From NCBI GenBank assembly GCA_002689385.1, contig NZFX01000044.1, positions 1 to 32,492 of the forward strand: 32,492 nt of DNA, written 5' to 3'. The DNA comes from Phycisphaerae bacterium. GTDB taxonomy: Bacteria; Planctomycetota; Phycisphaerae; Phycisphaerales; SM1A02. Of this stretch, positions 7,026 to 15,032 are shown piece by piece. The notes under the pieces are model-generated. The model was not told where the DNA came from. It did no database searches and saw only the letters and a list, made by a program, of their open reading frames with translations. Made by a program: the position numbers and the translations under genes. The first letter of the stretch is position 1; the number at the start of each line of letters is the position of its first letter.

Positions 7026-8822
7026 ATGGATAACCGAGTGGATGTCATCGTAATTGGCGGAGGTCATGCTGGCGTGGAAGCTGCTTGGGCAGCATCTTCT
7101 GCATTGCCAAAGGGCAAAATTGCTTTCGTTACTATGGACGCGTCAACAATTGGCGTCATGTCATGTAACCCTGCCATTGGCGGGCTTGGCAAAGGGCAAA
7201 TAGTTCGCGAGATCGACGCTCTTGGTGGTGTGATGGCAAGGGCAATTGATGCTACAGGCATTATGTTTAAAATGTTAAACACGTCCAAAGGCCCCGCGGT
7301 TTGGGGACCTCGAGCTCAAGCGGACAAAGACGCATACCGTGATGAAGTGCAGCGGATGATTGCAACTCGCAATAATATTGAAATCATTGAAGCAACTGTT
7401 GAAGAGTTAATTGTTGAAGATGGCGTATTGCAGGGTGTGATGCTCGATGGTCCACTGTATGCAAAAGCAGTCGTTTTAACGACGGGAACATTTATGCGTG
7501 GGCTTATGCATACTGGTGATGAACAATCCAAAGGCGGCCGAGTTGGCGAGGGAACTGCAGATACTATTTCGAGCGCACTTACTAGTCTTGGGTTTGAACT
7601 TGGTCGACTTAAAACGGGGACGCCTGCGCGCCTCTCAAAGAAGAGTATTGACTGGGACAATTTGCCATCGCAACTTGGTGATGCAGAGCCGGTTCCATTT
7701 AGTGATCTTCCGCCTAAAACATTCCCAGTGTTATCGCAAGTAGATTGTCGAATCACGGCGACTACTCCAGAGATGCATCAACTAATTAAAGATAATTTAG
7801 ATCGTGCCCCAATGTACAGCGGTGCAATTGATGCTGAGAGTGGACCAAGGTATTGCCCATCTATCGAAGACAAAGTTGTGCGTTTCGCTGAACGAGAGTC
7901 GCACCATGTGTTCCTTGAACCTGAGACAGTTGATGGCGATTCGGTGTACTGCAACGGCATAAGTACCTCGCTTCCTTCGGATATTCAAGAACAGATTATT
8001 CCGATGATGGCGGGCTGCAAAGACGCAATCATTCTTCAGATGGGGTACGCGGTCGAATACGATATCGTTCGTCCACATCAGATCAATGCAACCTGCGAAA
8101 CAAAGTTAGTGCAGGGTCTTTTTCTTGCGGGGCAAATCAATGGTACAAGTGGGTACGAAGAAGCGGCAGGGCAGGGGTTGCTTGCTGGTTTGAATGCTGC
8201 GCGTAAGGTAAATGGCGAAGATGAAGTTACGCTTGGGCGTGACCAAGCTTATATCGGTGTCATGATGGATGACTTGGTAACAACGCTTCCACGCGAGCCG
8301 TATCGAATGTTTACAAGCAGGGCAGAACATCGTTTGTTACTTCGTGCGGATAATTCAGATGAACGGTTAACACCATTTGGCAGAGAATTAGGAATTGTGT
8401 GCGACGAACGCTGGGAAGTGTGGGAACAACGCAAACAAGAAATCTACACTATCAAAACAGAAATTGAAAAACGGAAACTTAGCCAGCTTGCAAAACGATC
8501 TGATACAACAATCAAGGAACTGCAAGCAAAACTTTCAGAGTTTGACTCTCGTCTTGTGCACCGAGTTGTTTCAGACATTCGGTACGCCGGATATATCGTT
8601 CGCCAGCAAGCCGAGATCAAAAGGCAAGCAAAAACTGAGGGAAGAAAAATTCCGACTGATTTGAACCCAAGCGAAATCAGCGGTCTTCGAAACGAAGCTG
8701 TTGACGTTCTCAAGGAATTTAAACCAGCGACCCTAGGGCAAGCATCTCGCCTTGCGGGCATTACACCTGCCGACATTACGCTTATTTCAATTGCCATTGG
8801 TCGCTTTAATTCCACTATTTAA
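7026..8822 (+). CDS. mnmG: tRNA uridine-5-carboxymethylaminomethyl modification enzyme MnmG (GidA)
   Basis: FAD-dependent enzyme that with MnmE installs the (carboxymethyl)aminomethyl group at C5 of wobble uridine in several tRNAs. The FAD-binding Rossmann motif VIGGGHAGVEAA is at residues 9-20. Family signatures MSCNPAIGGLGKGQ and NTSKGPAVWGPRAQ follow, then the second conserved block GLFLAGQINGTSGYEEAAGQ and the C-terminal helical domain. The length of 598 residues is close to the usual ~620. It is the last gene of the korAB run. Its stop is only 15 bp from the left repeat of the tRNA-Tyr island, so the island did not damage it. Confidence 0.97.
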   Translation: MDNRVDVIVIGGGHAGVEAAWAASSALPKGKIAFVTMDASTIGVMSCNPAIGGLGKGQIVREIDALGGVMARAIDATGIMFKMLNTSKGPAVWGPRAQADKDAYRDEVQRMIATRNNIEIIEATVEELIVEDGVLQGVMLDGPLYAKAVVLTTGTFMRGLMHTGDEQSKGGRVGEGTADTISSALTSLGFELGRLKTGTPARLSKKSIDWDNLPSQLGDAEPVPFSDLPPKTFPVLSQVDCRITATTPEMHQLIKDNLDRAPMYSGAIDAESGPRYCPSIEDKVVRFAERESHHVFLEPETVDGDSVYCNGISTSLPSDIQEQIIPMMAGCKDAIILQMGYAVEYDIVRPHQINATCETKLVQGLFLAGQINGTSGYEEAAGQGLLAGLNAARKVNGEDEVTLGRDQAYIGVMMDDLVTTLPREPYRMFTSRAEHRLLLRADNSDERLTPFGRELGIVCDERWEVWEQRKQEIYTIKTEIEKRKLSQLAKRSDTTIKELQAKLSEFDSRLVHRVVSDIRYAGYIVRQQAEIKRQAKTEGRKIPTDLNPSEISGLRNEAVDVLKEFKPATLGQASRLAGITPADITLISIAIGRFNSTI

Positions 8823-8837
8823 TTCTGTAGATAGTCG

Positions 8838-8903
8838 AATGAGAAACACCTACATGTATAAACAGGTAGGTGTTACTGGATAAGCGAGACAGGATTCGAA
8901 CCT
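8838..8903. repeat. Left attachment-site repeat (attL) of the tRNA-Tyr island
   Basis: A 66-bp direct repeat matched by 11268-11333 with five differences. It holds a perfect 9-bp-stem hairpin (8845-8874) and then a copy of the tRNA-Tyr 3' end on the minus strand (from 8884). The bases corresponding to the start of the acceptor 3' strand read AA here instead of GG, so this copy could not pair as a working acceptor stem. It is the displaced, decaying end. The core shared with the right copy without change is 8884-8903. Confidence 0.85.
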
Positions 8904-9102
8904 TACTTCTAAAAACCCTGCTGGTGATATTGAAAACGCAGGAAACAAACAATCTTCATTAGGCGGTGTATCAAAATCCGCATCACTTATTGATAAAAGT
9001 GAACAGGTGCTGCAATTGCTTGCTTTGTTGCAGGAACTTTCAAGTGAGGAAATCGAGTTATTGTTGAGGCTGGCAGATAAACTCAAGCAATTTGATGCAT
9101 AA
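8884..9102 (+). pseudogene. Displaced C-terminal tail of the island integrase
   Basis: An open stretch of 72 codons starting in the attachment core (ARQDSNL) and ending at TAA 9100, with no plausible start codon or ribosome-binding site. The same ARQDSNL frame is the end of the integrase fragment at the other side of the island. If the island is closed into a circle by recombining the repeats, the integrase frame would continue without a break into this stretch. The tail adds about 65 residues, with a polar linker and then a leucine-rich, probably helical segment (QLLALLQELSSEEIELLLRL). A TAA codon directly before the core in this copy blocks translation from the left. Function of the tail is unknown. 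Confidence 0.6.
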
Positions 9103-9163
9103 TTATGATAATAAACGATAAAGACAAGAAAAGGAAACGGATATGACAGACGAAAAAAATAAG
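9075..9163 (+). repeat. Cassette leader repeat A1
   Basis: An 89-bp block repeated at 9320-9415 with small differences: the second copy has 7 extra bases after the CATAAT, plus a few substitutions. It contains the core CAATTTGATGCATAAT (9088-9103) that also occurs at 9333, 10174 and 10572, a GAAAAGGAAAC ribosome-binding region, and the first codons of the small membrane protein. CATAAT could be a -10 element. In this first copy the left part also encodes the end of the displaced integrase tail. Confidence 0.8.
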
Positions 9164-9325
9164 ATGAATAATTTTGCTTATGCTTGCATACGATTCATTA
9201 GCTGGAGAAAAAGAAAGCAAACGAATCAAGAAATGGCAGACGAAACAAAAAAGATGAGTATTTCCTATATGTTTTTTTTGTCCTGTATTGTGGTACTTTA
9301 TGTCCTAATCTGGTTCTTTAGATAA
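9143..9325 (+). CDS. Small membrane protein, cassette A1
   Basis: A 60-residue protein of unknown function. A charged, hydrophilic N-terminal part of about 40 residues is rich in Lys, Asn, Glu and Asp. One C-terminal membrane helix follows (MFFLSCIVVLYVLIWFF), ending in Arg. It is a paralogue of the next gene: both begin MTDE-NK and end with a near-identical helix and the same stop context. AAGGA precedes the ATG by about 9 nt. It has its own leader repeat with a CATAAT hexamer. A C-terminal anchor with the N-terminus in the cytoplasm is likely from the positive charges. No toxin, holin or defence family can be assigned. Confidence 0.65.
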   Translation: MTDEKNKMNNFAYACIRFISWRKRKQTNQEMADETKKMSISYMFFLSCIVVLYVLIWFFR

Positions 9326-9415
9326 ACTCAAGCAATTTGATGCATAATGCACAATTATGATAGTGAACGATAAAGACAAGAAAAGGAAACTGACATGACA
9401 GACGAAACAAATAAG
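9320..9415 (+). repeat. Cassette leader repeat A2
   Basis: The second copy of the A leader (see 9075-9163), 96 bp long. It begins inside the last codons of cassette A1 (AGATAAACTC, where TAA is the stop) and runs through the core CAATTTGATGCATAAT at 9333-9348 to the start of the next gene. A third, cut copy of only its first 17 bp is at 9557-9573. The repeat boundary falls at the same place each time, so the unit of duplication is leader plus gene. Confidence 0.8.
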
Positions 9416-9562
9416 AAGAATACGTTGATAGACGAGAACGATGACCAATCTGCTGAAGAGATTGAGGCTGATGACGGGGGTCTTAGTTCTATTGCCCTTT
9501 TCTCTATGTTTTTTTTGTCCTGTGCAGTGGTTCTTTCTATCCTAATCTGGTTCTTTAGATAA
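9395..9562 (+). CDS. Small membrane protein, cassette A2
   Basis: A 55-residue paralogue of cassette A1. The N-terminal MTDETNKKN is close to A1, but the middle is strongly acidic (DENDDQSAEEIEADDGG), unlike the basic middle of A1. The C-terminal helix MFFLSCAVVLSILIWFF and final Arg match A1 almost residue for residue. A GGAAAC stretch precedes the ATG. The pattern of conserved anchor and start with a swapped charged middle is notable. Function unknown. Confidence 0.65.
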   Translation: MTDETNKKNTLIDENDDQSAEEIEADDGGLSSIALFSMFFLSCAVVLSILIWFFR

Positions 9563-9574
9563 ACTCAAGCAATA

Positions 9575-9910
9575 TTGCGTGACGAAACAAGTGAAAAAAT
9601 GACTTTTAAAAGAGCACTTCCTATTTTAGTTTGGTTTGCTGCTTATGCTGGAATTAGATATGTTTTTGAGGATTTATTAGGATACAAAAATGTACCTTAC
9701 TTGCTCTGCGCATTTGCGATGCTATTTTTGGTCGAGGCAATCAGGTCAAAAAACAAGCAAGTGATATGCACGGTTATTGCTGTTGAGATTTTTATTGCAA
9801 CTTTTTATGTTGAGATTGCTTGGCTGGAGTATGGAATGTGGGCGTTAGGCATCATCGCAATCATTATTGGAATGCGTGGTTGTAAATCTTGTGAATCTGA
9901 TAAACAATAG
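9575..9910 (+). CDS. Small multi-pass membrane protein, cassette A3 (TTG start)
   Basis: A 111-residue, mostly hydrophobic protein with three or four predicted helices (about residues 13-30, 41-57, 61-82 and 86-100) and a Cys-containing C-terminus. The TTG at 9575 is chosen because the first codons read x-x-DETSEK, matching the MTDETNK start of the A1/A2 proteins; ATG at 9599 is the alternative. The 3' boundary repeat (9557-9573) is joined almost directly to this start. The promoter-like core and ribosome-binding stretch of the other copies are missing, as if deleted. It may be expressed only by read-through from A2, or not at all. I recognise no family. Confidence 0.5.
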   Translation: MRDETSEKMTFKRALPILVWFAAYAGIRYVFEDLLGYKNVPYLLCAFAMLFLVEAIRSKNKQVICTVIAVEIFIATFYVEIAWLEYGMWALGIIAIIIGMRGCKSCESDKQ

Positions 9911-9964
9911 TACTTCCTTAACACCCTCTGGGTATTGAAGGGGTGGTGGTGGTAGGATGCTGAT

Positions 9965-10114
9965 ATGAATGAGAAAATCAAAACACTTTGGAGTAAATCA
10001 ATCTTTAGGTTTATCTGTTATGCGATATTTTCCTTCCTGTTGTTGGGTTTATTCAGTGCTGGTGTACTTTGGATTCTTGGGCCAATGGTGCTAGAGAATG
10101 TAGACATCATTTGA
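9965..10114 (+). CDS. Very small membrane protein
   Basis: A 49-residue ORF with a basic N-terminus (about 15 residues with Lys and Arg), one long hydrophobic helix (ICYAIFSFLLLGLFSAGVLW) and a short acidic end. AGGA lies about 8 nt before the ATG. A hairpin terminator candidate follows at once. It resembles its neighbours in being tiny, basic at the start and membrane-bound, though no sequence match to the A cassettes is visible. Function unknown. Confidence 0.5.
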   Translation: MNEKIKTLWSKSIFRFICYAIFSFLLLGLFSAGVLWILGPMVLENVDII

Positions 10115-10123
10115 ATTTAAACC

Positions 10124-10151
10124 CCTCTGCACCTCGCAGAGGTCTTGTTTT
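10124..10151 (+). terminator. Hairpin terminator after the 49-residue gene
   Basis: CCTCTGC and GCAGAGG form a perfect 7-bp stem around a 5-nt loop (10124-10142), followed by TCTTGTTTT. It separates the left group of small genes from the B cassettes. The corresponding place before cassette B2 (about 10525-10550) has decayed and forms no such stem. Confidence 0.6.
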
Positions 10152-10160
10152 ATATGGGGA

Positions 10161-10202
10161 ATGTGCGTTCTTTCAATCTGATGCATAATGCACAGTGAAG
10201 GA
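10161..10202 (+). repeat. Cassette leader repeat B1
   Basis: A 42-bp block repeated at 10559-10600 with four differences. It contains the core CAATCTGATGCATAAT (10174-10189) shared with the A leaders and ends in GTGAAGGA, the ribosome-binding site of the following gene. The core is the only part common to all four leaders, which points to a promoter or a protein-binding site. Confidence 0.75.
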
Positions 10203-10211
10203 ACTAATACT

Positions 10212-10514
10212 ATGACAGAAACAGGAACTATCTTTGCAATTCTTGGAGCATCTATTGGTGTTGCAGGTGGTGCGTATGGAACGTGGAGGAGTATTTGTAA
10301 AGCATCCACTATAGATGAACGCAGGTTTTTGGTTAAAGCATCTCTAATATTCTGGGTGTATGTTGTTGGGTTTGTTGCATTGATTTTGCTAATGGCATCT
10401 AATTGGAAATGGTTGCTATATGTTTTGTATATACCTATTCTGCTTGTCCTCATTTCTTGGTGTAACAAAAGAATTGCAAGCATTCGTGCAAACCACAATG
10501 CTGACAGTACATAG
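10212..10514 (+). CDS. Small membrane protein, cassette B1
   Basis: A 100-residue protein with three predicted membrane helices (about residues 6-22, 40-60 and 64-83) and a polar C-terminus with Lys, Arg and His. The ATG at 10212 is chosen because AAGGA ends 9 nt before it; the upstream in-frame ATG at 10188 lies inside the leader core. Between helices 1 and 2 is a short polar loop (TIDERR). No known family is recognised. It sits in the array of small membrane-protein cassettes in the island. Confidence 0.6.
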   Translation: MTETGTIFAILGASIGVAGGAYGTWRSICKASTIDERRFLVKASLIFWVYVVGFVALILLMASNWKWLLYVLYIPILLVLISWCNKRIASIRANHNADST

Positions 10515-10558
10515 AATTGAACCCCCTGAACACCACAGATGACCCTTTAGATGGGAAA

Positions 10559-10600
10559 ATGTGTGTTCCTTCAATTTGATGCATAATGAACAGTGAAGGA
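10559..10600 (+). repeat. Cassette leader repeat B2
   Basis: The second copy of the B leader (38 of 42 bases as in 10161-10202), with the core CAATTTGATGCATAAT at 10572-10587 and GAAGGAG directly before the next gene. Similarity fades upstream of about 10550, although both copies are preceded by a run of C residues soon after the stop codon of the previous gene. Confidence 0.75.
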
Positions 10601-10609
10601 GCATCAGAA

Positions 10610-10918
10610 ATGAAAAATGAAAAAGATGTTAGATGCGAGGACATTAATAATCAACTAGTTAAATTAAAGTCAACTATCAGAACTACTTTTGTTGGATTGA
10701 TGGCATTGCAATTAGTAATATTTGTATTACTAATGAATGTTGTTCGAGATACATCCAAGAGAGATTATTCGAATTGGAAAACAGATTATCGCCTTGGTTA
10801 TTATTCTGCGAATGAGCAAAAGATGATTGCTAATTTAGAAGACAAAATGCTTCTCGAATTAAGCAAAATCCAAAATCAAATTACAGAGTTGAAATCAAGT
10901 GACCTCATCTCGAGATAA
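10610..10918 (+). CDS. Small single-pass membrane protein, cassette B2
   Basis: A 102-residue protein. A charged N-terminal segment of about 25 residues is followed by one membrane helix (FVGLMALQLVIFVLLMNVV) and a ~55-residue polar C-terminal part with heptad-like Leu/Ile spacing (DKMLLELSKIQNQITELK), probably a coiled coil. GAAGGAG lies 8 nt before the ATG at 10610. The leader matches cassette B1, but the protein does not, so the leaders seem to be attached to different genes. It resembles small phage or plasmid membrane proteins in shape only. Function unknown. Confidence 0.6.
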   Translation: MKNEKDVRCEDINNQLVKLKSTIRTTFVGLMALQLVIFVLLMNVVRDTSKRDYSNWKTDYRLGYYSANEQKMIANLEDKMLLELSKIQNQITELKSSDLISR

Positions 10919-11267
10919 ATTAGAAACAGGAGCATTGCAATGCAAAACGAAGAACGCATTTTGAGCGAATCATCAAGAAGTCTGGCGTTGAGCCATGGGT
11001 AAAGTTATGGCAGAACCTACGCTCGTCCTGTGCTACAGAATTGGCAGAGAAGTATCCAGAACATGTTTTAACTAATTGGTTGGGGAACACTCCAAAGATT
11101 GCAAAAGAACATTACTTGCAAGTAACAGATGAGCATTGGAGACGCGCTGCTACTGGCGAAACAACGCGCGAAGAAAGTGCATCAAAATCCGCATCAGTAC
11201 CCAGCGGTTTGGACATGAATCGTGCTGCACCGAGTTTTCGTAAAGAATCTGTAACTGTAGGCAGTGC

Positions 11268-11333
11268 AATGAGAAACACCTACATGCATAAGCAGGTAGG
11301 TGTTACTCGATGGGCGAGACAGGATTCGAACCT
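11268..11333. repeat. Right attachment-site repeat (attR) of the tRNA-Tyr island
   Basis: The partner of 8838-8903. It supplies the intact 3' end of tRNA-Tyr (minus strand) plus the hairpin just downstream of it, so integration leaves the tRNA and its likely terminator whole. Unchanged core: 11314-11333. Confidence 0.85.
11275..11304 (-). terminator. Hairpin downstream of tRNA-Tyr
   Basis: AACACCTAC and GTAGGTGTT pair perfectly, with an inner TGC/GCA stem and an ATAA loop. On the minus strand it lies 6 nt after the tRNA and is followed by TCTCATT, a weak U-rich tract, so it can act as the tRNA terminator. The copy in attL (8845-8874) keeps the fold with a compensating change. Confidence 0.55.
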
Positions 11334-11393
11334 GTGAAGGCGTACGCCAGCAGATTTACAGTCTGCCCCCTTTGTCCACTTGGGTACTCGCCC
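11311..11393 (-). tRNA. tRNA-Tyr (anticodon GTA)
   Basis: An 83-nt type II tRNA with a long variable arm. The acceptor stem GGGCGAG/CTCGCCC is perfect, the discriminator base is A and the anticodon GTA lies at 11357-11359. The T-arm reads ACAGGTTCGAATCCTGT. Its last ~20 nt form the island attachment core. Upstream on the minus strand, TTGACC and CATATT at 18-bp spacing form a candidate promoter, with the start a few bases before the tRNA. Confidence 0.96.
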
Positions 11394-11466
11394 TATTCAC
11401 TTCAATATGGTATATTACCTTGCTCGTGGTCAAACAGCAAGCATTAGCAAGCCAAATGACTACAAT

Positions 11467-11539
11467 GCCGCCGTAGCTCAACTGGTAGAGCGCTAGATTT
11501 GTAATCTTGAGGTTGCGGGTTCAAGTCCCACCGGCGGCT
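11467..11539 (+). tRNA. tRNA-Thr (anticodon TGT)
   Basis: A 73-nt tRNA. Acceptor stem GCCGCCG/CGGCGGC is perfect, discriminator T, anticodon TGT at 11500-11502. The anticodon stem CTAGA/TCTTG contains one T-T mismatch at the second pair. A strong terminator follows directly. It diverges from tRNA-Tyr across 73 bp. Confidence 0.95.
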
Positions 11540-11543
11540 TTTC

Positions 11544-11574
11544 AAGACTTAGATAAAAAGCTAAGTCTTTTTTT
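11544..11574 (+). terminator. Rho-independent terminator of tRNA-Thr
   Basis: AAGACTTAG and CTAAGTCTT form a perfect 9-bp stem around ATAAAAAG, followed by a run of T. It starts 5 nt after the tRNA and ends 13 nt before the methyltransferase ATG, so that gene needs its own promoter or read-through. Confidence 0.9.
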
Positions 11575-11586
11575 ATTTTAAGTACT

Positions 11587-12762
11587 ATGTCTACAAACGA
11601 CCCAAAACGAAAAACACGCGTGACGTGTGCCCCCAGTCTTGCACCTTATCTGAAGAAAGAGTTAGAGCAACTCGGTTTCGAAGCGCTTTCTATGGATAAG
11701 ACCGGCGTAGAAACAGTAGCGTCCATGGAAGAATGCATGTTGCTCAACTTGCGCTTGCGAACGGCATTCCATGTCTTGCAACGTTTCGCCGATATCAATT
11801 GTCGCAATGCAGAAGAACTTTACAGCGAAGCAAAACGATTGCCATGGGATAGAGTAATTGACCCATCGGGATTTCTTTCGATTACATCGAACGTGCGCAA
11901 CGAAACAATTACAAACTCCATGTTCCCAAACATGCGATTGAAAGATGCGATTTGCGACAAGCTTATATCGGTCGGTGGTAAACGGCCTGATTCCGGTTCA
12001 AGCACTGATGGCATGGTTGTGCATATGCACTGGGTGGACAACAAGGCGCGTATCTATTTGAATATGACGGGAAGAAAACTATCCGATCGTGGCTACCGCA
12101 AAATGCCATTTATGGCACCGATGCGTGAAACAATTGCGGCAGCGGTCTTAATGGAAATGAACTACGACGGCACTAAGCCGCTTGTTGTGCCAATGTGTGG
12201 ATCAGGGACTATTGCAATCGAAGCGGCGCTCATCGCGAAGCAACGTGCGCCGGGTTTACTACGAAGTAACTACGCTTGTAATCATTGGCTGACCTCTGAT
12301 AAAGATGCGTGGAGCCAACAGCGCGCTAGCGCGAAGAAACTTCTTGCTAAAAATGATCCCGCGCCGATTGTCGCAACGGACATTGAAGCAGATGCAATTG
12401 AGGCAACAAAGAAAAACGCAGTGACAGCGGGCGTCGACCACCTGATTGAGTTTCATGTTTGTGATTTTGCGCAAACACCGATGCCTGAAACTGTAGGCGA
12501 TGTTGTTTTACATGGTGAGTATGGGATGCGGCTAGGTGAAGACGAAGACTTAGTATCAACGTACAAGCGAATCGGTGACTTTATGAAAACAGATTGTGCT
12601 GGTTGGGACGGGTATGTGTTTACTTCGGGTAAGCCGCTCATTGCTGCAATTCGTTTGAAAGTAGCAAAGCGTACCCCGTTTATCAATGCGGAGATTGATT
12701 GCCGACTGTTGCGCTATGAGTTGTACAAAGGCACAAAAGTTGCGGAAGCATTCAGGAACTAG
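11587..12762 (+). CDS. THUMP-domain class I RNA methyltransferase (RlmL-N/UPF0020 family) with altered motifs
   Basis: A 391-residue protein of the THUMP plus UPF0020 family, whose members methylate N2 of guanosine in rRNA or tRNA. The N-terminal ~150 residues fit the ferredoxin-like and THUMP domains (VTCAPSLAPYLKKELEQLGF at about 12). The methyltransferase domain has PMCGSGTIAIEAALIAKQ as motif I near residue 203, and ATDIEADAIEATKKNA. In the family motif I is usually DPMCGSGT and motif IV is NPPYG; here they read VPMCGSGT and HGEYG. Catalysis may be changed or lost. The ATG at 11587 has no Shine-Dalgarno sequence and TATTTT 7 nt upstream. The start is consistent with the family N-terminus. 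Confidence 0.85.
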   Translation: MSTNDPKRKTRVTCAPSLAPYLKKELEQLGFEALSMDKTGVETVASMEECMLLNLRLRTAFHVLQRFADINCRNAEELYSEAKRLPWDRVIDPSGFLSITSNVRNETITNSMFPNMRLKDAICDKLISVGGKRPDSGSSTDGMVVHMHWVDNKARIYLNMTGRKLSDRGYRKMPFMAPMRETIAAAVLMEMNYDGTKPLVVPMCGSGTIAIEAALIAKQRAPGLLRSNYACNHWLTSDKDAWSQQRASAKKLLAKNDPAPIVATDIEADAIEATKKNAVTAGVDHLIEFHVCDFAQTPMPETVGDVVLHGEYGMRLGEDEDLVSTYKRIGDFMKTDCAGWDGYVFTSGKPLIAAIRLKVAKRTPFINAEIDCRLLRYELYKGTKVAEAFRN

Positions 12763-12950: not shown

Positions 12951-14033
12951 CTAGAGGACTTGGCCCGCTTTGGGGTAGGAACCAAGAATTTTGATTGATT
13001 TGCAGAAAGTGCTTGCGCGTTTGACGGCGGATTGAAGCCCCGCCGTATCGCGGTGCGCGTCTGCATCAATGTAAAACGTGTAATCCCAATTTGTTCGGCC
13101 ACTTGGGCGTTTATCGATATGACTTAAATTAATGCCGTTATCACGGAATGCAGCGAGTACATCGACGAGTGCGCCCGGCTTGTGCTTTGTGGTGAACATA
13201 ATGGTGGACTTGTCATCGGTTGATGGCAGTGCGGATTCTTTTGCAAGAATCAAAAAACGGGTGATATTATCTGGTCGGTCTTGGACGTTCTCAATAGCAA
13301 TTTCTACACCGTACGTATGTGCTGCAAGTTCTGAACCAATCGCTGCCGTGTGCGGATCTTCTTTTGCAAGTTTGACTGCCTGCGCGCTGCTTGCAGTTTC
13401 AATAACTTCTACGTTTGAAAACATTGCGGTAAGCCATTTGCGACACTGAGAAATTACTTGAGGTTTCGATGCGATGCGTGTAATTTCTTTTGTTGTTCCA
13501 TTACACAGCAAGCAGTGTTGAATATCAATAAGTGCTTCTGCATAAATCGTAATGTCGTGTTCTTGAAATGCGTCAAGTGTGTCCGTGATGGAGCCACTCG
13601 TAGAATTCTCATACGGCACTAATCCATAACTGCAATGTCCAGAGGCGACTTCTCGAAACACTCGTTCGATAGTTGGGACGCCGATACATTCCACGCTCGA
13701 ACCAAAATGGCGAATTGCAGCAATGTGGCTGAAGGAACCACTTGGAGCAAGGTGCGCAATTTTTAGTGGTTGTTCGATTTGGAAACTGCCGGACATAAGC
13801 TCCCTGTAGATTGCTTCAATAGTTTTGTTTGAGAGGGGACCTTTGTTTTCTGCAAGAACTCGTTCAAGTACTGCTCGTTCGCGGTGGGGCGCATAAATGG
13901 GTGTATCAGTCCCTCGTTTGTGCTTGCCAACATTAACAACAACTCGTGCTCTTGCAGACAGTAACTCGATTAGCTTCTTGTCGAGTTCATCAATCTGCTG
14001 CCGCAGTTCATCAAGGTTATTTTGGTCTTCCAT
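12951..14033 (-). CDS. pheA: Bifunctional chorismate mutase/prephenate dehydratase (P-protein)
   Basis: Converts chorismate to prephenate and then to phenylpyruvate in phenylalanine synthesis. The 360-residue protein has a chorismate mutase helical domain at about residues 5-85 (DELRQQIDELDKKLIELLSA, then HRERAVLERV). The prephenate dehydratase domain spans about 92-265 (APSGSFSHIAA, VPYENSTSGSI and the catalytic NITRF). A C-terminal ACT domain covers about 278-355 (KPGALVDVLAAFRDNGINLSHI), which in the family gives feedback inhibition by phenylalanine. The ACT motif usually written ESRP reads DKRP here. TATGCT ends 6 nt before the ATG and no Shine-Dalgarno sequence is present. It is transcribed in the same direction as the sigma gene but separated by a terminator. 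Confidence 0.95.
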   Translation of the reverse strand: MEDQNNLDELRQQIDELDKKLIELLSARARVVVNVGKHKRGTDTPIYAPHRERAVLERVLAENKGPLSNKTIEAIYRELMSGSFQIEQPLKIAHLAPSGSFSHIAAIRHFGSSVECIGVPTIERVFREVASGHCSYGLVPYENSTSGSITDTLDAFQEHDITIYAEALIDIQHCLLCNGTTKEITRIASKPQVISQCRKWLTAMFSNVEVIETASSAQAVKLAKEDPHTAAIGSELAAHTYGVEIAIENVQDRPDNITRFLILAKESALPSTDDKSTIMFTTKHKPGALVDVLAAFRDNGINLSHIDKRPSGRTNWDYTFYIDADAHRDTAGLQSAVKRASTFCKSIKILGSYPKAGQVL

Positions 14034-14162: not shown

Positions 14163-14684
14163 TTACGCTGATTGTTTCATTTCGGTCTCTTGGGCGTGCT
14201 TCTTTAGCTTGTTGATGCCACGATATTTCCAATTGTTTACGGTCGAGACTGGTACGCCAAGTGATGCGGAAGCTTCTTCGTAGCTTAGGCCTTCACAAAT
14301 CACAAGTCGGACAGCATCACGCTCATGGCTTGGAAGCATTGCGAGCGCTTTAGTGATTTCAGTATTTGACCACTGTGCCTCATCGCTTTTTAGATTACGG
14401 AGGTCGCGGATTGCTTCTTCACGTTGTGATTCGATGTATCGATTTTTGCGCTGGTTTTTGTTGTACCGCCTTTTGATAAGGTTATCAGCGATTTTGATGA
14501 GGTAGCTCGAAGTGATCGTTTTTTCTTCAAGCGCATTGACTGTGAGGAGGCGTGTGAACACTTCTTGTGCGATGTCTTCAGCAGCACCAGGTGCGAGTGA
14601 TTTTCGAGTGAAGCAGTAGACTCGCTTGTAGTAGGAGTCGAATAGTTCTAGTACTAGGTTTGCTCTTGTTGTAGTTACGGGCAC
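14163..14684 (-). CDS. RNA polymerase sigma factor, ECF-like
   Basis: A 173-residue sigma-70 family protein with regions 2 and 4 only. Region 2 is at about residues 10-80 (SYYKRVYCFTRKSL, GAAEDIAQEVFTRLL, YLIKIADNLIKRRY). Region 4 is at about residues 115-165 (LPSHERDAVRLVICEGLSYE, then ASLGVPVSTVNNWKYRGINK, a helix-turn-helix that would read the -35). The GTG at 14684 is chosen because AAGGAG ends 8 nt before it; the ATG at 14786 would add 34 residues without a family match. No anti-sigma factor gene is adjacent. Its own promoter and targets are not evident; the 348-bp gap upstream with repeated TTTGTTC is a candidate. Confidence 0.88.
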   Translation of the reverse strand: MPVTTTRANLVLELFDSYYKRVYCFTRKSLAPGAAEDIAQEVFTRLLTVNALEEKTITSSYLIKIADNLIKRRYNKNQRKNRYIESQREEAIRDLRNLKSDEAQWSNTEITKALAMLPSHERDAVRLVICEGLSYEEASASLGVPVSTVNNWKYRGINKLKKHAQETEMKQSA

Positions 14685-15032
14685 GTCAGTCTCTCCTTGG
14701 TCAAGCGGTTTGCAACGATTCTTGGTTGCATAATCCGTGGCTTTTTCAAGACCCAAATTGCCAACACGGCATTTTGAGGACTCCATTTGTGCGCTGAATG
14801 GTCATCAGAGCGAGGAGTCAATGCCTCGTTCCCGGCTGGGTCGTGGAGGCACCTTCATGAGTTTCAATTGTCAAAGGCGAAAATCAGCTTTCTGATAAGA
14901 GCCACCCCCAACTATGCTTCATATTCGAGATTGTGAACCGTTTTGTTCTATTTTGTTCAAAAAAAGACGAAAAGTTTGTTCTCGATGTAGAATATGCCCT
15001 TTAAACGAATCTTTTTTGGAGACAACATACTA
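14685..15032. other. Gene-free divergent region with short repeats
   Basis: A 348-bp gap between the sigma gene and the small membrane-protein gene. Three copies of TTTGTTC (14942, 14952 and 14975) lie close together, the first two exactly 10 bp apart. TAGAAT at 14988-14993 is a candidate -10 for the plus-strand gene. ATCAG-CTTT-CTGAT (14883-14896) and CGAGG/CCTCG (14811-14828) can form hairpins. No further gene is supported here. Confidence 0.45.

Follow-up and report, generated by a model that had tools for sequence, protein, structure and literature searches.

A planctomycete RlmL homologue with HGEY in place of NPPY is conserved in eight genera of one family and kept under purifying selection

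Cells may retain rRNA methyltransferases for the mark they leave or for the way they handle RNA, an open question that mutation of Asn309 in Escherichia coli RlmL has addressed. RlmL is the N-terminal half of RlmKL and the 23S rRNA m2G2445 methyltransferase; its motif I starts with D195 and its motif IV, NPPYG, with the Asn at residue 309. According to PMC11194073, the N309A variant makes no m2G2445 yet stimulates large-subunit assembly to the same degree as native RlmL in a ten-gene modification-enzyme knockout, and gives a 50S/70S ratio very similar to that of the native protein in that strain. The paper ascribes the stimulation to an RNA helicase activity on helix 74, reported for RlmKL in earlier work cited there, describes the growth effect of RlmL in the ten-gene knockout as small (‘a little’, at 30 °C) and reports that the ribosome profile improved most notably with the fused RlmKL. 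PMC11221467 likewise allows that enzymes of this kind may have roles other than modification.

The window, a stretch of 32,492 nucleotides from a Phycisphaerae bacterium, encodes a protein of this type (Table 1). The RlmL N-terminal, THUMP and UPF0020 domains occur in that order in its 391 residues, all over the Pfam cut-offs, which bears out the RlmL/UPF0020-type identity given to it by the original prediction. Alignment to E. coli RlmL (3v97) likewise upholds the two replacements on which that prediction turned, VPMCGSGT lying opposite DPMCGSGT and HGEYG opposite NPPYG, the latter continuing as MRLGE (H309-G-E-Y-G-M-R-L-G-E). The SAM-loop glycines, described as intact, are unchanged, as is the motif II Asp. 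The sequence-nearest solved structures are E. coli RlmKL (3v97 and 3v8v) and the putative methyltransferases 3ldu, 3k0b and 3ldg, and the four structure alignments examined all have D at the first place of motif I and NPPYG at motif IV. Against the NCBIfam RlmKL equivalog the protein scores 274.7 bits, below the cut-off of 466; the model covers the 704-residue fused protein, a handicap for one of 391 residues. By sequence and predicted fold, we place the protein in the UPF0020/THUMP superfamily with an RlmL-like structure. We regard it as a homologue of RlmL whose active site has been replaced and have not classed it as an RlmL enzyme, because two defining catalytic features (the motif I Asp and NPPY) are missing.

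Table 1. Features of the gene and its surroundings, in window coordinates
Feature	Position	Strand	Details
RlmL-type THUMP/UPF0020 protein, catalytic motifs replaced (P0001)	11587..12762	+	391 aa, ATG to stop
RlmL N-terminal ferredoxin-like domain	11620..11778	+	residues 12-64; Pfam PF22020, E 3.5e-9
THUMP RNA-binding domain	11803..12060	+	residues 73-158; Pfam PF02926, E 1.6e-7
UPF0020 methyltransferase domain	12088..12708	+	PF01170, 128.2 bits, E 1.7e-36
Motif I VPMCGSGT	12187..12210	+	residues 201-208; V replaces D, GSGT retained
Motif II Asp265	12379..12381	+	invariant in 180/180 divergent-clade and 114/114 canonical proteins
Motif IV HGEYG replacing NPPYG	12511..12525	+	residues 309-313; H309 aligns with E. 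coli N309
Ser347	12625..12627	+	end of predicted strand 341-347; third HGEY-specific methyltransferase-domain substitution
MnmG	7026-8822		upstream of the gene; Pfam
Chorismate mutase/prephenate dehydratase	12951-14033	-	downstream; Pfam
Sigma factor	14163-14786	-	downstream; Pfam

The gene neighbours give no hint of function. The downstream neighbours, including a saccharopine dehydrogenase-like gene, are common to three same-genus loci and absent beside the gene in eight others, and one other locus (L045) carries in its flank a relative of a CoA-transferase encoded at the left extreme of the window. Immediately upstream, 2.8 kb (8823-11586) hold no ORF of at least 150 aa; ORFs of 111, 108 and 110 aa lie there on the plus strand.

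Relatives were found in 29 of 61 genomes of wider kinship, 12 of the 13 in the same genus among them, and within this set VPMCGSGT and HGEYG occur together in all 12 own-genus relatives and in four further genera. The larger survey drew on the best 80 of 581 matches from a scan of named genomes and on UPF0020 searches of the same family (168 of 181 genomes matching at 0.001, many weakly), the same phylum (151 of 294 at 1e-25), a Bacteroidota sample (155 of 296 at 1e-25) and 12 single genomes. The loci read were those from the scans together with 120 further regions, a subset of all matches. They numbered 361, of which 331 fit the RlmL profile and yielded 295 distinct proteins; one of 111 aa was dropped, leaving 294. 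Written as the first residue of motif I followed by the motif IV tetrad, their combinations are D/NPPY (92 proteins), N/NPEY (75), V/HGEY and N/NPPY (28 each), D/NPPW (11), C/NPEY (9), I/HGEY and I/HPEY (7 each), L/NPEY (6), A/NPPW and D/NPPF (4 each) and 14 rarer ones (23 together). Three loci of genera g56 and g11 (L254, L257 and L261) have UPF0020 matches of 1e-31 to 1e-37 that do not fit the RlmL profile; one such match, in G124, accompanies a C...NPEY RlmL-type protein.

HGEY thus stands in 35 of the 294 proteins: 12 from the same genus (g1), 22 from seven other genera of the family (g5, g7, g8, g14, g47, g53 and g60) and one from g59, all nine genomes of which have HPEY or HPGY. In the eight genera it was read in 34 of 37 genomes, the exceptions being two without a strong UPF0020 match (G012 and G105) and one with a partial match (G180). 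To judge from this distribution, HGEY is more than chance; 35 distinct proteins from a single planctomycete family have it without variation, so that the suggestion that it might be a conserved clade feature proved right. One genome, G169, has both an HPEY protein (L136, on C101) and an HGEY protein (L259, C24:26522-28336), 51% identical; the latter scores equally well at two oppositely oriented positions of a single contig (27122 on the plus strand and 35449 on the minus). Contamination, a faulty assembly or a true paralog could each be the cause. Another small-genome genus of the family, g22 (L027, L244, L245 and L246), has A...NPPW, in which the motif I Asp is absent and Trp stands for Tyr while Pro is retained at the third place of motif IV.

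The gene is evidently under purifying selection. Of 66 pairs compared within the genus, the 17 with the least saturation give dN/dS values of 0.023-0.100 (Nei-Gojobori, own script); in the two of these with dS below 1 it is 0.056 and 0.040. The codons for H, G, E and Y vary synonymously between species of the genus and the residues remain constant. The 35 HGEY proteins have a minimum pairwise identity of 51% (mean 63%) and 94 of 383 columns invariant, and H309, G310, E311, Y312, G313, C204-T208, E212 and D265 are the same in every one. Position 201 is V in 28 and I in 7. The site rates of the invariant motif residues are in the lowest fifth, that of V201 in the middle. Strain-specific loss, gene decay or sequencing error would have to account for the same motif in 35 distinct proteins with an intact frame and low dN/dS, and nothing was found in its favour; we consider it so improbable that we reject it, in agreement with the earlier description of the frame as undamaged and the gene as not decaying.

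A first tree of 136 representatives, built with the motif columns left out, placed the 55 rows without the motif I Asp and one further row (L039) in a single clade (SH-aLRT 100), and a careful tree of those 56 rows with 12 chosen canonical rows recovered the same clade with support of 100/100. To this divergent subfamily belong 180 of the 294 proteins, 179 without the motif I Asp; the one that has it, L039, keeps Glu at motif IV (D...NPEY). The commonest tetrad is NPEY (96 of 180). Record titles assign the members to Planctomycetota, Bacteroidota and Omnitrophota, and a Spirochaetes bin can be added on the strength of its motif, although single titles may be wrong because some are metagenome bins. 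All 114 canonical proteins have the motif I Asp. The Asp is indeed missing from the window protein, as claimed, but its loss is shared by a far larger subfamily and is nothing special to this protein.

Within the clade, the HGEY proteins (support 100/99) and the HPEY/HPGY proteins (100/98) each form a group, both inside the same planctomycete family; the two are not sisters in the best tree, and the alternative of a single His clade is not rejected (p-AU 0.478). On this phylogeny, we place the origin of His at the catalytic Asn inside the Asp-lacking clade. Of the 20 non-His proteins read from the family, none carries NPPY or the Asp of motif I; motif I starts with N, C, L, A or V and the tetrad is NPEY, NPDY, NPAY or NPPW. 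Close relatives with an intact NPPY, named in advance as the evidence that would point to a loss or an error, are thus absent among the proteins read. Because these 20 proteins lack the Asp and have these tetrads, we take the loss of the Asp to be older than the changes of N to H and P to G, and the change of P to E most likely to be older as well. The motif replacement is real, but what this lineage lost was not the D...NPPY that had been assumed. The HGEY protein appears as the last step in a series, the motif I change being common to the entire subfamily.

We also considered a charge swap in which Glu311 replaces the lost motif I Asp. It had an initial appeal, as D is paired with P in 114 proteins and with E in one, and was weakened by 34 divergent proteins in which Pro stands third and the Asp is missing (28 N/P, 4 A/P and 2 I/P). 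The N/NPPY proteins, 27 from the Bacteroidota sample and one Balneola, are represented by three tree rows nested among NPEY rows, so the pairing is largely one ancestral event.

It could be that all members of the Asp-lacking subfamily, which most often have NPEY, act on a different site or RNA and that HGEY is a late refinement of this altered specificity. The subfamily is one fully supported clade with conserved residues that are rare in canonical proteins (W149 in 100%, V144 in 98%, H233 in 92% and C292 in 91%, with H166 lost). Each of the 12 member genomes tested has one strong UPF0020 match (E < 1e-38; next best 9e-12), and the divergent protein would therefore replace canonical RlmL, not accompany it. 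A one-for-one replacement, however, is compatible too with an ortholog of unchanged target, and the conserved sites are spread over the protein; we consider this reading unlikely.

The genome that carries the window (1.94 Mb, 97.9% complete) has no second UPF0020 match at E ≤ 0.001. The canonical job consequently has no second copy there, and a second canonical gene is ruled out. Its 23S rRNA has G2069 and G2445, the latter present also in 29 other aligned genomes; loss of the target base is ruled out by a test that has little power, since G2445 is so conserved. RlmK (PF10672) gave no match over its cut-off in the 13 genomes of the genus and one weak match below it. RlmN is over its cut-off in all 37 genomes searched, and the RlmB model matches in 36 of the 37, none reaching its cut-off. 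A second RlmN-like match, below the RlmN cut-off, accompanies the clear RlmN in ten of the 13 own-genus genomes (e.g. G000:C15:20679-21560).

Counting as a signature any residue at least 90% fixed in HGEY proteins and at most 10% in the non-His rest of the clade, nine residues are HGEY-specific: 65, 66, 67 and 69, just before the THUMP domain; 89 and 90, inside it; and 309, 310 and 347 in the methyltransferase domain. The position of Ser347 is Gly in 93% of non-His divergent proteins. An AlphaFold model, for which 53 proteins from the window and named loci were aligned, has a pLDDT of 90.3 and a pTM of 0.88, with the block 311-320 averaging 62. It has strands at 199-201, 305-308 and 341-347, and V201, H309 and S347 are predicted at their carboxyl ends. 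As these strands are presumably neighbours in this fold, it looks as though the catalytic end was rebuilt locally, which is unlike general decay. The best solved match of the predicted model is E. coli RlmKL (3v97_A: Z 43.4, rmsd 1.9 over 372 residues, 28% identity), and Foldseek against E. coli RlmL gives an E of 1.2e-36. No clearly unrelated fold appears among the 50 structure matches listed, which carries no evidential weight.

Since the known catalytic residues have been swapped, yet the gene is carefully preserved, the protein probably either contributes to ribosome building by another route or works with an unfamiliar active site. We tentatively favour the former, as a leading reading that falls a little short of probable: a SAM-binding assembly factor that acts on helix 74 and has lost the canonical way of making m2G2445. 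We favour it because H309 aligns with N309, whose Ala mutant loses m2G2445 and still stimulates 50S assembly. The gene would encode RlmL's counterpart in planctomycetes, a protein that would still bind SAM or SAH and, through its N-terminal and THUMP domains, 23S rRNA; Asn309, which positions the guanine amino group in RlmL, is now His, in a loop seemingly rebuilt around it (Gly310, Glu311 and Ser347), and m2G2445 would most likely no longer be made in the canonical way. The job under selection would be to open helix 74 and promote 50S assembly near the peptidyl-transferase centre without methylation. This proposal is based on homology, the predicted fold, the motif replacement and its history, purifying selection and the SAM-pocket residues. 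Catalytic Asn309 is absent while the gene is retained under purifying selection, as would be expected of an RlmL-like assembly factor independent of methylation. Degenerate SAM-binding motifs, the mark of a pseudoenzyme without cofactor, are not seen, as GSGT, E212 and D265 are invariant in all 35 proteins.

Several observations would suit an assembly factor: the conservation of HGEY (35 of 35) with low dN/dS and a gene present in 34 of 37 genomes, the single UPF0020 match, no RlmK over the cut-off in the genus and the fold match to RlmL. The methyltransferase domain also appears to evolve faster relative to THUMP in the HGEY group, with a rate ratio of 1.26 (permutation p 0.035, one of four and uncorrected) against 0.90 and 0.90 in two NPEY groups and 1.14 in the canonical group (p 0.11). 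Against it, the SAM pocket is as constrained as in the NPEY proteins (mean rate 0.28, compared with 0.35 and 0.27 in the two NPEY groups; the canonical rate of 0.78 is high, for which alignment noise or wider divergence are the sole suggested causes), and no residue of the HGEY tetrad varies, where the mere disappearance of catalysis would be expected to leave part of the pocket and tetrad free to drift. In principle, His could take the acceptor role of Asn in the hydrogen bond. The presence of G2445 in the genome also counts against an assembly factor, as does the E. coli growth effect, which was small, was observed in a ten-gene knockout and came with a ribosome profile improved most by the fused RlmKL.

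A SAM-dependent methyltransferase that is still active, with a rebuilt catalytic loop and m2G2445 or a closely related guanine modification as its product, is nearly as likely, because the new tetrad is so conserved; we regard it as a serious possibility that is itself less than probable. His309 would take over the hydrogen bond of Asn309, and Glu311 and Ser347 would complete the pocket. The invariance of HGEY down to 51% pairwise identity, the synonymous variation of its codons around fixed residues, the invariant GSGT, E212 and D265, the presence of G2445 and the restriction of HGEY-specific changes in the methyltransferase domain to three positions, at strand ends in the predicted model, all agree with such an enzyme. 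It is opposed by the constancy of Asn309, kept in 112 of 114 canonical and 136 of 136 non-His divergent proteins; to our knowledge, moreover, no characterised NPPY-family enzyme has His at this place. It is opposed also by the loss of m2G2445 in E. coli N309A (PMC11194073), a result that supports the original claim that NPPY is needed for guanine N-methylation as far as the Asn and m2G in E. coli are concerned. It is possible, if less than probable, that the HGEY proteins are active enzymes in which Asn-Pro-Pro was converted to His-Gly-Glu in apparent steps (D to N or a hydrophobic residue and P to E, then N to H and P to G), giving a different catalytic arrangement, perhaps with a different product, near the peptidyl-transferase centre.

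We found no paper in the open-licence literature on NPEY or HGEY forms of RlmL-type proteins, on THUMP methyltransferases in Planctomycetes, or, in Bacteroidota, on rRNA modification such as m2G at 23S position 2445; the NPEY subfamily is, on its sequences, delimited here. Annotation pipelines would probably name all these forms simply RNA methyltransferases. The residue mutated in E. coli has here been replaced by evolution, in a gene kept in small genomes and with the new residues held fixed. A methylation-dead protein would be evidence from nature that it pays to keep such an enzyme just for handling RNA. An active one would mean that the NPPY rule for calling such enzymes is too narrow, and would provide graded living intermediates (D-NPPY, N-NPEY, I-HPEY and V-HGEY) for studying how an active site is rebuilt.

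Compared with known systems, the window protein has the domain order and, by prediction, the fold of E. coli RlmL (3v97, 3v8v), and has the SAM loop GSGT and the motif II Asp in common with it; it differs in D195 to V and N309-P-P-Y to H-G-E-Y and in having no fused RlmK. E. coli RlmL(N309A) has the same residue replaced and, according to PMC11194073, keeps assembly without m2G2445, but carries Ala in a laboratory construct, whereas His, Gly, Glu and Ser have been fixed by evolution in the HGEY proteins. The NPEY subfamily (Bacteroidota, Omnitrophota, Planctomycetota and others by title) is the parent clade, at 42-52% identity, and shares the missing motif I Asp (except in one protein) and the Glu at the third place of motif IV, but keeps Asn309 and Pro310. 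Pseudo-methyltransferases such as METTL14 and the N-terminal domain of RsmC also combine a methyltransferase fold with a substituted catalytic motif. These are partners or domains beside an active copy; unlike them, the HGEY protein is single-copy and stand-alone, and its SAM motifs are kept.
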